Assembly: GCA_019118885.1 (NCBI GenBank)
Contig: DWYB01000060.1
Location: 1-46,893, forward strand
Source of the DNA: Candidatus Mediterraneibacter surreyensis
Lineage (GTDB): Bacteria > Bacillota > Clostridia > Lachnospirales > Lachnospiraceae
DNA length: 46,893 nt
Reading direction: 5' to 3'
How positions within the stretch are numbered: the stretch's first letter is position 1; each line of letters begins with the position of its first letter. Both the position numbers and the translations under genes were made by a program. The notes below the pieces were generated by a model. The model saw nothing but the letters and a program-made list of their open reading frames with translations, was not told where the DNA came from and did no database searches. This document shows, piece after piece, positions 18,790 through 38,030 of the stretch.

Positions 18790-18854
18790 CAAAATATAAC
18801 AAATGCATGATTTAAACCTGCATGATTTAAATATGGAAAAGAGCTATGTAACTA

Positions 18855-18883
18855 TTGACATTACAACATTAAGGTGATATTCT
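18855..18883 (+). promoter_or_regulatory. Sigma-A promoter of the macrodomain-sirtuin operon
   Basis: TTGACA at 18855-18860 and TATTCT at 18878-18883 are exactly 17 bases apart, about 105 bases before the macrodomain start. A pair of 13-base direct repeats TGCATGATTTAAA lies just upstream at about 18800-18835. Confidence 0.7.
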
Positions 18884-18895
18884 GACAATGCAAGA

Positions 18896-18914
18896 TGTAA
18901 TGATTGATATTACA
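18896..18914 (+). promoter_or_regulatory. Inverted repeat, putative Rrf2 operator
   Basis: TGTAAT and ATTACA are separated by seven bases, directly downstream of the operon promoter. A similar ATTACA box overlaps the spacer of that promoter (ACATTACAAC). The operon encodes an Rrf2 regulator, so autoregulation here is a reasonable inference. Confidence 0.5.
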
Positions 18915-18988
18915 ATGATGCCGGCGGACAGCCGTTCGGAAAGGCTGCGTGCAGGCGGCTGACAGCCGGAGATCAGGAGGCGGAGGAT

Positions 18989-19870
18989 ATGGCGATTTGG
19001 ACGTCAAATAGAAAAGAATCAGACAAAAATACAGATCAGTCCCACAAGAAACAGGAGGAGAGGCTTGACTATCTTCTCCATGAGTTCAAGGAGGATTCCG
19101 TTCAGTACAGAGATCTGGAAACCGGGGATGACTATGACGAAAAACGGAAATATCTCCGGTCTCTTATGAATATCCGCATGCCGGGACCGATGGATGAGAA
19201 TGTGGTGAGGGTTCAGGATGAATTCCTTGCCGAAGAGGCGAGAGAAAAAGGAATTGTGGAGCTTAAGGATATAACCACAGCGGCGGAACAATACGGAAGC
19301 AGCCATCCTCATGCGGATAAGATTTCTGTCTGGCAGGGGGATATCACCAGACTGCATGTGGGAGCCATCGTCAATGCGGCGAACTCCCAGATGCTGGGGT
19401 GTTTCGTGCCATGTCACGGATGCATTGACAATGCCATCCACAGCGCGGCGGGAATTGAACTGCGTGAAGCGTGCAGTCATTATATGAACCGGAAGCGGAT
19501 GCAGTACGGCCGCCGTTATGAGGAGCCCACAGGGCAGGCGGCCCTGACAGAAGGATATAATCTCCCCGCAGAATATGTGATCCACACAGTGGGTCCGATC
19601 GTGGGAGGATATCTGGATCAGAAGTTGAGGAATGACTTAAAGAACTGCTATCTGAATGTATTGAAATGCTGTGTGGAACATAAGATCCGCTCCGTGGCAT
19701 TCTGCTGCATCAGTACAGGAGAATTTCATTTCCCAAATGATGAGGCGGCGAAGATCGCGGTGAAGACTGTGATGGAATTCTTAAATGAGCACAGTGGGGA
19801 GTTTGACAGAGTTATTTTTAATGTATTCAAAGATATAGATAAAGAACTGTATGAGAACGAACTGAGATAA
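18989..19870 (+). CDS. Zinc-type macrodomain protein, probable protein-ADP-ribose hydrolase
   Basis: A 293-residue protein. Residues 1-110 form a charged N-terminal helical region; the macrodomain runs from about 112. It shows QGDITRLHVGAIVNAANS (NAAN at 129-132) and GCFVPCHGCIDNAIH at 137-151, the cysteine/histidine signature of the zinc-containing macrodomains of Firmicutes that remove mono-ADP-ribose from proteins, plus the late CISTGEFHFP loop. In streptococci and staphylococci such enzymes are encoded beside class M sirtuins that attach ADP-ribose. Here the sirtuin lies two genes downstream, supporting an add/remove pair. The start follows GGAGGCGGAGG. Confidence 0.9.
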   Translation: MAIWTSNRKESDKNTDQSHKKQEERLDYLLHEFKEDSVQYRDLETGDDYDEKRKYLRSLMNIRMPGPMDENVVRVQDEFLAEEAREKGIVELKDITTAAEQYGSSHPHADKISVWQGDITRLHVGAIVNAANSQMLGCFVPCHGCIDNAIHSAAGIELREACSHYMNRKRMQYGRRYEEPTGQAALTEGYNLPAEYVIHTVGPIVGGYLDQKLRNDLKNCYLNVLKCCVEHKIRSVAFCCISTGEFHFPNDEAAKIAVKTVMEFLNEHSGEFDRVIFNVFKDIDKELYENELR

Positions 19871-19912
19871 CACGGCATACAGCTGCTGATCGTGGAAAGG
19901 AGATTGAGATTT

Positions 19913-20356
19913 ATGCAGATATCAAGCAGATTTACCATTGCGATCCATATGCTGACATGTATGGAGACGTTTAAAGAGGAATATAAGATAACCAGTGATT
20001 TTCTAGCTTCCAGCATCAATGTGAATCCTGTCATCATCCGCCGGATCCTGTCCCAGCTGAAAGACGCGGGGCTGATCGAGGTAAAGAGAGGAACAGGCGG
20101 GGCTGCCATCATACAGCCGCCGGAGAAGATCACGTTTCTGGATGTCTACCGGGCTGTGGAATGCATAGAGGAGAATACGCTGTTTCATTTCCATGAGAAC
20201 CCGAATCCGGACTGTCCGGTAGGGAGAAATATCCACAATATACTGGATGACAAGCTGATCCGGGTGCAGGAAGCGATGGAGCGGGAATTAAAGGCTATCA
20301 CGCTGGCGGATGTGATGGATGATCTGGAAAAAATCCTGAGAGGAGGAAAGCAATAA
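19913..20356 (+). CDS. Rrf2 family transcriptional regulator
   Basis: A 147-residue Rrf2 regulator. The N-terminal winged helix-turn-helix is clear (MQISSRFTIAIHMLTCM, then VNPVIIRRILSQLKDAGLI with the wing VKRGTGGA). The C-terminal part has a single cysteine in NPDCPVGRNI rather than the three spaced cysteines that hold an Fe-S cluster in IscR, so it resembles YwnA-type members. The start at 19913 has AAGGAG about ten bases upstream; an upstream in-frame start at 19892 is less likely. It sits between macrodomain and sirtuin genes and its last base overlaps the sirtuin ATG. It probably controls this operon. Confidence 0.88.
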   Translation: MQISSRFTIAIHMLTCMETFKEEYKITSDFLASSINVNPVIIRRILSQLKDAGLIEVKRGTGGAAIIQPPEKITFLDVYRAVECIEENTLFHFHENPNPDCPVGRNIHNILDDKLIRVQEAMERELKAITLADVMDDLEKILRGGKQ

Positions 20357-21225
20357 TGTTTTCCGGGCTGTTTAAGCAGAAAAAAACAGAGACATATAAC
20401 GATAAGATTGCCCGTCTGAAAGAGGCTCTTGAGGAGGCGGACGTTGTACTCGTCGGCGCGGGAGCAGGTCTTTCCACATCGGCAGGTTTTGTATATGACG
20501 GGGAACGTTTTCAGAAATATTTCGGGGACTTTAAAGAAAAATACGGTTTTCAGGATATGTATTCCGGCGGATTTTATCCTTATGATACACTGGAAGAACA
20601 CTGGGCGTACTGGAGCCGCTATATCTGGATCAACCGTTATGCAGACGCCCCGAAACCGGTATATGACGAGCTGTTTGAACTTGTAAAGGATAAAGATTAT
20701 TTCGTCCTGACGACTAATGTAGACCACTGTTTCCAGAAAGCAGGATTTGACAAGAAAAGGCTTTTCTATACGCAGGGAGATTACGGACTGTTCCAGTGCT
20801 CGGAACCGTGCTGCCAGAAGACATGGGATAACGAAGATACGGTCAGGCAGATGGTGGAGCAGCAGAAGGATATGCGTATTCCGTCTGAACTGGTGCCGCA
20901 TTGTCCGAACTGCGGAAAACCCATGTCCATGAACCTTCGGGCCGACGATACATTTGTGCAGGATGAGGGATGGTACGCCGCGTCAGAGCGGTATTCAGAA
21001 TTTGTGAGACGGCATCAGGGCATGAAAACGCTCTATCTGGAGCTGGGAGTAGGGTATAATACACCCGGTATCATCAAGTATCCATTCTGGCAGGCGACAT
21101 ATCGGGATCCGAAGGCAACATATGCATGCATCAATTACGGGGATGCGGCGGCGCCGAAAGAGATTGCGGAGCGGTCGATCTGTATAGATGGGGATATTGG
21201 AGAAGTTCTGGAGAAAATCAGATAG
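20356..21225 (+). CDS. Class M-like sirtuin (SIR2 family, probable protein ADP-ribosyltransferase)
   Basis: A 289-residue SIR2 protein. The NAD-binding loop reads GAGAGLSTSAGF (34-45) rather than the deacetylase GAGxSxxSGIPDFR. TTNVDHCFQKAG (119-130) matches the T-Q-N-I-D region, and at the position of the catalytic histidine the sequence is FYTQGDYG, with Gln140. Replacement of that histidine by Gln is typical of class M sirtuins (SirTM), which ADP-ribosylate rather than deacetylate. A zinc-ribbon-like set follows: CSEPCC and CPNCGKPM. Unlike known SirTM operons, no GcvH-L or lipoate ligase gene is adjacent. It starts on a TAATG overlap with the Rrf2 gene and has AGGAGG upstream. Confidence 0.88.
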   Translation: MFSGLFKQKKTETYNDKIARLKEALEEADVVLVGAGAGLSTSAGFVYDGERFQKYFGDFKEKYGFQDMYSGGFYPYDTLEEHWAYWSRYIWINRYADAPKPVYDELFELVKDKDYFVLTTNVDHCFQKAGFDKKRLFYTQGDYGLFQCSEPCCQKTWDNEDTVRQMVEQQKDMRIPSELVPHCPNCGKPMSMNLRADDTFVQDEGWYAASERYSEFVRRHQGMKTLYLELGVGYNTPGIIKYPFWQATYRDPKATYACINYGDAAAPKEIAERSICIDGDIGEVLEKIR

Positions 21226-21240
21226 AAGGAGCGTGAATAT

Positions 21241-22116
21241 ATGCATGACATCTGGAATCCGTGGCACGGCTGCAGGAAGTGCTCGGAGGGGTGCGAAAAC
21301 TGTTATATGTATTTCCTCGACCGGATGCGGGAGCAGGATGGAAGCCGGATCTACCGGACGAAGAACGGATTCCGCTATCCGCTGTCTAAGGACCGGCAGG
21401 GAAAATACAAGGTAAAAAGCGGGGAGATGATCCGGGTCTGCATGACCTCGGATTTTTTTCTTGAAGAGGCGGATCCGTGGAGAAACGAGGCATGGTCAGT
21501 CATGCGGGAGAGAAAAGATGTGAAGTTTTTTCTTCTGACGAAGCGTCCGGAACGTGTATCCTCCTGCCTGCCCTATGACTGGGGAGAAGGATGGCAGAAC
21601 GTATTCTTCAATGTGACCTGCGAGAACCAGAGGCGGGCGGATGAGAGAATCCCGCTCCTGTTTGAGCTTCCATTTAAGCATAAGGGAATTATGACAGCTC
21701 CGCTGATCGGCCCGGTAGATATCGGTAAATATCTGGCGAAAGGGCAGATTGAGCAGGTGATATGTGGCGGTGAGAATTATGACGGGTCTCGGCTGTGCCG
21801 CTATGAGTGGGTGAAGCTCTTAAGTGACCAGTGCAGAAAATACGACGTTACGTTTAATTTTATCGAGACGGGAACCTGTTTCGCGGTCGGAGAAAAGGTA
21901 TACCGTATTCCGGATAAGCGGACACAGTCCCGGCAGGCGTTCAGGTCTGGGCTGAATTATAAAGGGAAAGAGATCCATTTCCACCTGACGGATGAATGGG
22001 GATACGACATCCCTGAGGAAGAACTCTACGTTCCCCATTATCATCCGGTTACATGTACGGAATGTTCCAACCGTCTGACGTGCAACGGATGTTCGGACTG
22101 CGGGAAGTGCGGGTAA
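21241..22116 (+). CDS. DUF5131 (phage Gp37/Gp68-like) protein with cysteine-rich ends
   Basis: A 291-residue protein of the DUF5131 family, also called phage Gp37/Gp68-like. The N-terminus reads IWNPWHGCRKCSEGCENCY with cysteines at 11, 14, 18 and 21, a cluster-binding-like set reminiscent of radical SAM proteins. The middle has FFLLTKRPER and LIGPVDIGKYL, family features. The last 20 residues carry six further cysteines (272, 275, 281, 284, 287, 290), suggesting a second metal or Fe-S site. It starts 15 bases after the sirtuin gene with AAGGAGCG upstream, so it is the fourth gene of the operon. Its chemistry is unknown to me; a link to ADP-ribosylation is inferred from position only. Confidence 0.82.
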   Translation: MHDIWNPWHGCRKCSEGCENCYMYFLDRMREQDGSRIYRTKNGFRYPLSKDRQGKYKVKSGEMIRVCMTSDFFLEEADPWRNEAWSVMRERKDVKFFLLTKRPERVSSCLPYDWGEGWQNVFFNVTCENQRRADERIPLLFELPFKHKGIMTAPLIGPVDIGKYLAKGQIEQVICGGENYDGSRLCRYEWVKLLSDQCRKYDVTFNFIETGTCFAVGEKVYRIPDKRTQSRQAFRSGLNYKGKEIHFHLTDEWGYDIPEEELYVPHYHPVTCTECSNRLTCNGCSDCGKCG

Positions 22117-22238: not shown

Positions 22239-23039
22239 ATGCAGACTAGATCAAAGATGCTGAAAAAAGCTTTTACCACTGCATTCCCTTATACAATACC
22301 GATCTTTGCCGGATTCTGGTTTCTTGGGATTACATACGGCATTTATATGAATGTTTCAGGATTCAGTTTCTGGTATCCGATGCTGATGAGCATTACCATA
22401 TTTGCGGGATCCATAGAGTTTGTGACTGTCAATATGCTACTGGGGGCGTTTAATCCGCTGCAGGCTTTTGCCATGACTCTGATGATCAATGCGAGGCATC
22501 TGTTCTATGGGATTTCCATGCTGGACAAGTTCCGTGGCGTGGGACGCAAGAAATTCTATCTGATCTTCGGAATGTGTGACGAGAGCTTTTCCATAAACTA
22601 TACCGCGGATATTCCGGAAGATGTTGACCGGGGATGGTTTATGTTTTTTGTTACGCTTCTGAACCATTTTTACTGGTTCTCAGGCGCGACGCTTGGAGGA
22701 ATCTTCGGTTCGCTGATCCATTTCAACACGGAAGGGCTGGAATTTGTTATGACTGCTATGTTCGTGGTAATTTTTATGGAGCAGTGGCTCAAAGAAAAGA
22801 ATCATACGAGTTCGATTCTGGGGCTTATTATTTCACTTATCTGCCTTATTGCTTTCGGAGCGGATAACTTTATCATACCGGCGATGCTGGCGATCCTTGC
22901 GGTGCTGTCACTGCTGAGAAGACCGCTTGAAGCCGGCGGGGCAGCAGATGACGACAACGGGAACAGTGCTGATTCAGATGGTTCCGGACAGCACAGAATG
23001 GAAATCGGTGAATCCGGGAGAGGAGGAGAGGCACAGTGA
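22239..23039 (+). CDS. azlC: AzlC-family branched-chain amino acid exporter subunit
   Basis: A 266-residue membrane protein of the AzlC family. AzlC with AzlD exports branched-chain amino acids and analogues. The sequence shows the conserved early [21 protein letters not shown], the segment [15 protein letters not shown] and [14 protein letters not shown]. About seven helices are predicted. The last 35 residues are polar and rich in D, S and G, an unusual tail. GGAGGGG precedes the ATG by eight bases. The stop overlaps the GTG start of azlD by four bases (GTGA). Confidence 0.92.
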
Positions 23040-23362
23040 CTTTGACACAACAGATCATAACAGTTGCAATGGTAGTGCTCGGCACGGCGGTGCCCCGCTT
23101 TCTGCCCTTTCTTATCTTCCCGGCAGGGAAGCAGACGCCGAAATATGTACAGTATCTTGGGAAAGTGCTTCCGGCAGCAGTGTTCGGCCTGCTGGTCATC
23201 TACTGTCTGAAGGATGTGAGCGTTTTTACCGGAAGCCACGGCATACCGGAGCTGATCTCGATCATACTTGTGATCCTGCTCCATGTGTGGAAACGGCAGA
23301 TGCTCCTGTCTATTGCAGGAGGGACGGTGTGCTATATGCTGCTTGTGCAGATGGTGTTTTGA
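23036..23362 (+). CDS. azlD: AzlD-family branched-chain amino acid exporter subunit
   Basis: A 108-residue membrane protein of the AzlD family, small partner of AzlC. Four hydrophobic helices are visible; the segment [16 protein letters not shown] is characteristic, with the arginine-proline in the first loop. It starts at GTG 23036 inside the end of azlC, with GGAGGAGAGG upstream, so translation is coupled. Confidence 0.92.
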
Positions 23363-36612: not shown

Positions 36613-36951
36613 TTACGCATTCTTCGCCTTATATTCCAGTCCCCAGTCCTGCATAGCGTCAAGAATAGGCTTGAGGCTCTGCCCCAGTTCGGTCAGGGAG
36701 TATTCTACCCGGGGCGGAACTTCCGCATAAACCTTGCGGTTGACAAGACCGCTGCTTTCCATATCCCTCAGCTGTGCGGTCAGTACTTTCTGTGAGACGT
36801 TCCCGATAGATTTTTTCAGTTCGCCGAAGCGTTTGGTGCCGGGGAGAAGATCTCTCAGGATCAGGACTTTCCATTTGTCGCCAATGAGCGTCAGTGTCGT
36901 TTCGACCGGACACGCGGGCAGATCTTTCTTAACCGCTGCCTGATTTGCCAT
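36613..36951 (-). CDS. HxlR family transcriptional regulator
   Basis: A 112-residue winged-helix regulator of the HxlR type. It has the conserved cysteine in CPVETTLTLIGDKWKVLILR, then FGELKKSIGNVSQKVLTAQL and the wing PPRVEYSLTELG. Members often sense redox or electrophile stress through that cysteine. AGGAGG lies eight bases before the ATG. The target is unclear; the divergent flavin-binding fusion gene at 37419 is a candidate. Confidence 0.9.
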   Translation of the reverse strand: MANQAAVKKDLPACPVETTLTLIGDKWKVLILRDLLPGTKRFGELKKSIGNVSQKVLTAQLRDMESSGLVNRKVYAEVPPRVEYSLTELGQSLKPILDAMQDWGLEYKAKNA

Positions 36952-37418: not shown

Positions 37419-38030
37419 GTGGATGCACAGAAATGTCTTCGGATTTTAAGAGATGTCAAAGATGTAGCTTTTGCCACAGCAGATGAGAATGGGATGCCTC
37501 ATGTCCGGATCATCGATGTGATGCTGGTGGAAGATGGAAAACTTTACTTCTGTACAGCAAGGGGAAAGGATTTCTACCGGCAGATTACAGAAAATCCTCA
37601 CACAGAGATCACGGGGATGAACCGGAACTATCAGATGGTGCGTCTCTCGGGAAAAGTAAAGAGGCTGCCGGAACAGAAGAAATGGATTGACCGGATCTTT
37701 GAGGCAAATCCGTCTATGAAGGACGTCTATCCGGGAGAGAGCAGATATATTCTGGAACCTTTCTGTATTGAAGACGGACAGATTGAATTTTTTGATCTTG
37801 GAAAGACTCCCATATACAGAGAGAGCTTTACGATCGGAACGGTAAAAGCCCCGCAGAAAGGATTTGATATCACAGATGCCTGTATCGGATGCGGCAAATG
37901 TCAGAGAACCTGCCCGCAGCAGTGTATTTCGGAGGGAACACCGTTTGAGATCAGTCAGGAACGCTGTCTGCACTGCGGATTATGTTATGAAAACTGTCCG
38001 GTAAGGGCAATTATAAGAAGGGGTGAGTAA
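37419..38030 (+). CDS. Pyridoxamine-5'-phosphate-oxidase-like flavin domain fused to a 2[4Fe-4S] ferredoxin
   Basis: A 203-residue fusion. Residues about 1-140 are a split-barrel flavin-binding domain of the PNPOx type (FATADENGMPHVRIIDVMLV and LYFCTARGKDFY). Residues about 147-203 are a ferredoxin with two full cluster motifs, CIGCGKCQRTCP and CLHCGLCYENCP. It probably shuttles electrons between ferredoxin-like donors and a flavin, as a soluble reductase; the substrate is unknown. The start is GTG 37419, with AGGAGGAG seven bases upstream. It ends three bases before the transporter gene, which may share its transcript. Confidence 0.87.
   Translation: MDAQKCLRILRDVKDVAFATADENGMPHVRIIDVMLVEDGKLYFCTARGKDFYRQITENPHTEITGMNRNYQMVRLSGKVKRLPEQKKWIDRIFEANPSMKDVYPGESRYILEPFCIEDGQIEFFDLGKTPIYRESFTIGTVKAPQKGFDITDACIGCGKCQRTCPQQCISEGTPFEISQERCLHCGLCYENCPVRAIIRRGE

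Follow-up and report, generated by a model that had tools for sequence, protein, structure and literature searches.

The window analyzed here (46,893 nucleotides, positions 1 to 46,893 of contig DWYB01000060.1, assembly GCA_019118885.1 of Candidatus Mediterraneibacter surreyensis, a Lachnospiraceae member) carries between positions 18847 and 22116 four co-directed genes, encoding a zinc-type macrodomain protein (Zn-Macro), an Rrf2 regulator, a class M sirtuin (SirTM) and a DUF5131 protein, behind a promoter with two palindromes. On the evidence of the genes, their motifs, the paired palindromes, phylogeny, synteny and promoter homology, this operon is probably a stress-inducible switch for reversible mono-ADP-ribosylation, derived by deletion from a larger locus and directed to a target other than a lipoyl protein. 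As far as its sequence tells, it is unusual as a rearranged derivative, with partners of two lineages and a recurrent paired palindrome in front. SirTM would move ADP-ribose from NAD+ onto a protein and Zn-Macro would take it off, while Rrf2 would hold the operon repressed at the two promoter palindromes and be released under redox or electrophile stress. The target would not be a lipoyl carrier and most likely would be a redox protein (flavin or Fe-S) in trans, because genes of this kind recur beside SirTM across Clostridia. An accessory or passenger role would fall to DUF5131, a predicted radical-SAM enzyme.

The putative eraser gene (18989-19870, + strand) encodes 293 residues that match PF01661 (E 1e-36) and NF003163 (306.6 bits, cut-off 272). 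Its best solved relatives are 8rsi, 5kiv, 8rsl and 8rsm; according to PMC11490716, 8rsi, 8rsl and 8rsm are named Zn-Macros and 5kiv is an earlier S. aureus structure. The zinc-type signature reported in a preliminary description of this DNA is indeed there, since both the Cx4HxC Zn-loop (CFVPCHGC from residue 138) and NAAN (at 129), given as family features in that paper, are present. The N-terminal extension of the family, a three-helix bundle, was recognized at the sequence level only, by alignments that start at residue 22 for 8rsi and at residue 19 for 5kiv. The putative writer (20356-21225, + strand, 289 residues) aligns with the solved SirTM 5a3a (E 3e-70). The glutamine noticed earlier in place of the catalytic histidine is Gln140, which with Gly141 turns the HG motif into QG and is invariant across 22 aligned relatives. 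Asn121, Arg195 and GVGYNTP are the equivalents of Asn118, Arg192 and GVGx[NT]TP, listed for SirTM in PMC4518038. The linkage of SirTM to a Zn-Macro is also found, the two lying in the same cluster with the rrf2 gene between them. By sequence the pair is thus a genuine SirTM/Zn-Macro system, and the presence of such a pair makes reversible ADP-ribosylation by the window system probable.

The two partners belong to different lineages. In trees of the top 20 adjacent SirTM/macrodomain pairs, 22 random ones and locus L099, the macrodomains of G307 and G323, whose neighbour is a B-clade SirTM, form one group with the window, G345 and G348 macrodomains (100/99), whereas the window SirTM lies inside the A clade, apart from every B type (100/99). 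Among 96 adjacent pairs (matches under 190 residues were left out, and two of the three locus ids of one G133 place were dropped before the trees), seven B-type macrodomains are 62-88% identical to that of the window, and no A-type one exceeds 60% unless it is of the window type. Macrodomains of the window type (at least 75% identity) occur at 23 places in the genus, seven of them directly after a SirTM of 44-50% identity and five one gene before an A-type SirTM; the seven were assigned to the B type, although two are partial, and the tree confirmed those of G307 and G323.

Gene order in relatives suggests how this pairing arose. In G313 the order is a B-type SirTM remnant, Macro, Rrf2, HxlR, ACGX-repeat peptide, radical-SAM maturase, nitroreductase (broken), PNPOx-ferredoxin protein, A-type SirTM, an ATPase, a SirTM remnant, DUF5131 and azlCD, and G323 and G307 show decayed forms of a G313-like locus. 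The parent locus, partly decayed in these three genomes, would have consisted of the promoter, B-clade SirTM, Macro, Rrf2, sometimes HxlR, the ACGX peptide, its radical-SAM maturase, a nitroreductase, a PNPOx/ferredoxin protein, A-clade SirTM, DUF5131 and azlCD. Two deletions in this larger operon would explain the present arrangement: 1) that of the B-clade SirTM between the promoter and Macro and 2) that of the segment between Rrf2 and the A-clade SirTM. Writer and eraser would thereby have come together from two different SirTM systems, and deletion is the direction of change that we infer. At 65 of 79 columns the promoter region is identical in four sequences, those of the window, G345 and G348 and the one at the head of the sir'-Macro-Rrf2 operon of G307, and because the window promoter aligns with the last of these the B-type SirTM seems to have been lost between promoter and Macro. 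Macro-Rrf2-SirTM-DUF5131 is the order in the window, G345 and G348; G328 has the same with an ATPase gene ahead of DUF5131, G338 has Macro-Rrf2-SirTM and no DUF5131 found in its genome, and in G312 the ACGX operon stands immediately before DUF5131 with no SirTM there. This naturally occurring match of a writer with another system's eraser bears on whether substrate specificity sits in the one or the other.

The preliminary description correctly reported tight packing, with spacings of 15-42 nt or overlaps (42 nt between Macro and rrf2, a 1-nt overlap between rrf2 and SirTM, and 15 nt between SirTM and DUF5131), and also a consensus promoter with an inverted repeat. The promoter is of the sigma-70 type (18855-18883, + strand), with -35 TTGACA at 18855-18860, a 17 nt spacer and -10 TATTCT at 18878-18883 (10/12 consensus positions); such patterns are common, nine being found in the scanned stretch against a mean of 5.6 (sd 2.3) in shuffles. 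The repeat proved to be two perfect TGTAAY-N7-RTTACA palindromes, both probable operators, with no other copy in the window and 0.02 expected by chance. Palindrome 1, TGTAACTATTGACATTACA (18847-18865), covers the -35 hexamer and is identical in G328, G345 and G348. Palindrome 2, TGTAATGATTGATATTACA (18896-18914), lies 49 bp past palindrome 1 and begins 12 bp past the -10. In 2.07 Mb of loci, a set that includes some places twice, TGTAAY and RTTACA were separated by seven bases 55 times, by four once, and by 5, 6, 8, 9, 10 or 11 never. Nineteen palindrome pairs at 41-49 bp, the window's own included, were found among the matches listed, and the 49-bp spacing recurs in G328, G338, G345 and G348. 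Operator places within about 260 nt of a gene start numbered 27 of 35 (macro 10, rrf2 7, NAD-binding 4, sir 3, PNPOx-ferredoxin 2, hxlR 1), a count that is biased because the loci were selected for SirTM or Macro. The simplest reading is that Rrf2 would bind the palindromes, which suggest a route to the inducing signal. The same paired palindrome also lies near the start of NAD-binding genes of the PF13460 type (L217 6499-6566, L070 7019-7086, L025 3069-3136 and L200 863-930), which suggests a small regulon.

The regulator itself (19913-20356, + strand) matches PF02082 and has Cys16, Cys84 and Cys101. Its start was placed at ATG 19913, ahead of which AAAGGAG was seen by eye, within a longer frame from GTG 19892. 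It resembles the YwnA/HypR group in that 1ylf and YwnA 1xd7 are its closest solved relatives and in that the Rrf2 of some relatives adjoins a PF13460 NAD-binding gene.

Several observations weigh against the switch as we propose it. The Rrf2 protein differs from HypR in scoring 60 bits against the HypR model NF041852, below the curated cut-off of 180, and its matches to RrpA/RrpB are likewise under their curated cut-offs, so redox sensing is suggested by distant kin. A palindrome with 0-2 mismatches lies 62-68 nt before the rrf2 start in only eight of the 22 usable genes (L073, L136, L144, L159, L014, L216, L214 and L111; of 24 upstream stretches scored, L075 and L204 were not counted). It is placed elsewhere in L213 (1 mismatch, 32 nt), L203 (2 mismatches, 110 nt) and L125 (1 mismatch, 104 nt), and 3-6 mismatches are the best found upstream of rrf2 in the window, L062, L072, L200, L025, L009, L207, L133, L145, L131 and L142. 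These results count against a simple autoregulation story; in the window they agree with transcription of the operon from the promoter ahead of Macro. The window operon itself has lost the redox neighbour genes. Exchanges of SirTM partners between Macro clades have occurred more than once (L026, L096, L213-L216), and the joint occurrence of SirTM, DUF5131 and Macro in G050, a genome of another genus, may hint that DUF5131 is more than a passenger.

The missing lipoyl partners, also pointed out before, were looked for in the whole assembled genome (G000 in our set, about 90% complete). It gave no GcvH match (PF01597), and no lipoate ligase or LplA2, the sole PF03099 (BPL/LplA/LipB) match being a BirA-like protein. 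In this the window is ordinary: lipoyl-free SirTM/macrodomain operons have been known since 2015, when independent SirTM operons were reported with Lachnospiraceae named among their hosts (PMC4518038). The earlier idea of a variant reversible ADP-ribosylation system is supported as regards a SirTM/Zn-Macro pair with no lipoyl partner, and is not supported as regards the absence of lipoyl genes being special. Across the family SirTM matches, weak and partial ones included, occur in 218 of 299 genomes, and GcvH above cut-off in 103; in 47 of these a match exceeds 100 bits, and the others show short matches under 30 bits only. When places were compared by eye in those 47 genomes, no strong GcvH lay closer than 100 kb to a SirTM among the matches listed, which do not include the SirTM place of G178. 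The window operon resembles the independent SirTM/Zn-Macro operons described in PMC4518038 and PMC11490716 in its family motifs, its single cluster and its family of origin, and differs from them in having Rrf2 between the partners, DUF5131 after them, paired palindromes before them and partners of different lineages. With the extended lipoyl operon of Lactobacillales and Staphylococcaceae (GcvH-L, LplA2, OYE, LLM) it shares writer and eraser. Flavin redox genes also lie near SirTM in relatives of the window, but they belong to other families than those of the extended operon. Unlike that operon, the window has no GcvH or lipoate ligase found in its genome, and the scan of five flanking genes showed neither OYE nor LLM.

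A stronger result than any within the window is the operon of redox genes and an ACGX-repeat peptide around SirTM in Clostridia. We compared the best 80 of at least 565 SirTM loci, many of which stop at contig ends (58 have at least 4.6 kb upstream and 61 at least 3 kb downstream). Neighbours from -5 to +4 kb were counted at 78 of them, L122 and L154 having no called SirTM, by single-linkage clusters of open reading frames (ORFs), each named from one representative. Zn-Macro is found at 58 loci (median start 724 nt upstream), a divergent HxlR at 34, a PNPOx-fold protein with a 2[4Fe-4S] ferredoxin domain at 28, nitroreductase at 21, a radical-SAM/SPASM protein at 19, Rrf2 at nine and the NAD-binding PF13460 type at five. 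The radical-SAM representative is rSAM_ACGX (TIGR04340, 576 bits, cut-off 400) and a peptide of the same locus matches the ACGX-repeat peptide (TIGR04341, 87.7 bits, cut-off 28). The typical order is HxlR (divergent), ACGX, rSAM, nitroreductase, PNPOx-ferredoxin, Macro, SirTM; from ACGX to SirTM it is complete in eight loci (L110, L111, L113, L124, L130, L155, L158 and L169), with Rrf2 replacing HxlR in L111. An ACGX ORF is present in 19 of the 80 loci, identical to the 19 with the maturase cluster. In the family as a whole, 36 rSAM_ACGX places above cut-off were found in 35 of the 299 genomes, and at least 20 of them have a SirTM among the matches listed no more than 5 kb away (same strand in 18), where about 0.1 would be expected at random with one SirTM per 3 Mb. 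The open-licence literature searched gave no mention of a link between SirTM and ACGX, no paper on the ACGX system and nothing recognized as this gene arrangement; what appears to be new is this operon, together with the cross-lineage pairing and the paired palindromes that recur near the Rrf2, macrodomain and SirTM genes of relatives. Peptide, maturase, nitroreductase and flavin-ferredoxin protein make a short list of directly testable target candidates. Across the family, DUF5131 is a poorer candidate than the redox proteins or the ACGX peptide. A broader scheme, which we regard as doubtful, would have the clostridial SirTM/Zn-Macro pair belong to a redox operon built round the ACGX peptide, with its Cys- and Asp/Glu-rich repeats or the adjoining flavin/ferredoxin protein as target in the role of GcvH-L, and the window as a deletion coupling that writer to the eraser of a second system.

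A related explanation is that in the full operon SirTM modifies the ACGX peptide or the enzymes that mature it and that the window system is a relic deprived of its substrate. It is supported by the 19 loci of 80 in which peptide and maturase coincide, by the proximity of at least 20 of 36 maturase genes to SirTM and by the peptide in this very locus of genus relatives G307, G312 and G313. We nevertheless consider it unlikely, since 61 of the 80 SirTM loci have no ACGX ORF, a figure that includes 41 of the 58 loci whose upstream sequence is 4.6 kb or longer, and 16 of the 36 maturase genes are not near a SirTM among the matches listed. The window has neither ACGX gene: no ACGX ORF was found in a search covering the window only, and the four TIGR04340 matches in its genome (best E 7e-10; protein match 25 bits) are all under the cut-off, yet the reading frames of both writer and eraser have stayed intact.

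The substitution of DUF5131 for the lipoylated target, as the preliminary description proposed, fared less well. In that scheme DUF5131 would be the SirTM substrate, with Macro reversing the modification, and would stand in for GcvH-L. It is the last gene of the cluster (21241-22116, + strand, long form), 15 nt past SirTM, and an intact SirTM lies directly ahead of it in G000, G345, G348 and G349 and also, with Macro next, in G050. However, DUF5131 is present in one of the 80 SirTM loci. In the genus it occurs in 21 of 58 genomes (one weak match left out), and 15 of these have no intact SirTM upstream in the visible stretch and yet keep the same Cys cluster; contig ends are close in some (under 1.2 kb upstream in G343, G319 and G301, soon after the gene in G305, G331 and G344). 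Some link is favoured by nine of the 21 genomes, in which SirTM, intact or as a remnant, precedes the gene. The long form is found in nine family genomes outside the genus, only G050 having an adjoining SirTM and Macro. The protein matches PF07505 (E 6e-39) and is predicted from its model to be a radical-SAM enzyme rather than a carrier protein, a fold recognized when a second aligner was run on Foldseek's candidates; Foldseek by itself gave no significant match, and sequences of solved structures gave none up to E 1. Its invariant CX6CX2C motif (C11-x6-C18-x2-C21) and C-terminal Cys cluster are unchanged in copies with no SirTM. Cys14, giving CX3CX2C, is found in L041 and in 13 of the 14 rows of the long form, and not in L040 (G050) or other short forms, in an alignment of 29 proteins from 38 loci (four near-copies were left out, as were L052, L057 and L060 with internal stops and L043 and L048, which continue into longer frames). 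We thus judge DUF5131 an improbable substrate. The conserved co-occurrence of the four genes expected earlier was largely contradicted, as they are contiguous in three of 58 genus genomes (G000, G345 and G348). This rarity, with DUF5131 mostly found apart from SirTM, would suit four chance neighbours of no common function, but Macro, Rrf2 and SirTM stand together with the same paired palindromes in G000, G345, G348, G328 and G338, and a gene of the Macro cluster is near SirTM in 58 of 78 loci, so that chance seems highly improbable. An anti-phage conflict system comprising DUF5131 and SirTM is more improbable still: DUF5131 matches PADLOC PDC-M30B (2e-29) and PDC-M41B (7e-29), labels that presumably denote candidate families, but macrodomain and sirtuin have no PADLOC match up to E 0.01, Rrf2 has weak ones only (E 0.007 to 0.01), the scanned genes that flank the operon belong to metabolism or transport and the recurrent context is redox.

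Within L099 (6061-8737, G050) SirTM, DUF5131 and Macro form one cluster, preceded by HxlR and two related ferredoxin-type proteins, of which the one scanned is QueG-like, below cut-off. Between SirTM and DUF5131 several genus members carry AAA ATPase genes of two sequence types (L073 4646-5941, L075 4505-5779, L218 6970-7290), that of L073 matching AAA_14 and DUF4143, as if this junction were an insertion point. Downstream of DUF5131 the window has azlC-azlD (22239-23362, + strand), the usual genes there in the genus (azlC within 3 kb in 16 of the 21 genomes) and not considered part of the modification system; the scan of five flanking genes gave MarR-GNAT, EamA, AzlC, AzlD and SBP. Elsewhere in the window lie a second HxlR-like regulator (36613-36951, - strand), kin of the SirTM-operon HxlR (55% to the yardstick), and a PNPOx-like protein with a 2[4Fe-4S] ferredoxin (37419-38030, + strand; 43% to the SirTM-operon yardstick), followed by an ABC transporter of the osmoprotectant type, judged by eye only. 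Tandems of two or three divergent SirTM-like genes, 34-39% identical to that of the window, occur at G351:C60, G340:C36, G311:C9, G343:C70, G345:C52, G355:C100 and G349:C18.

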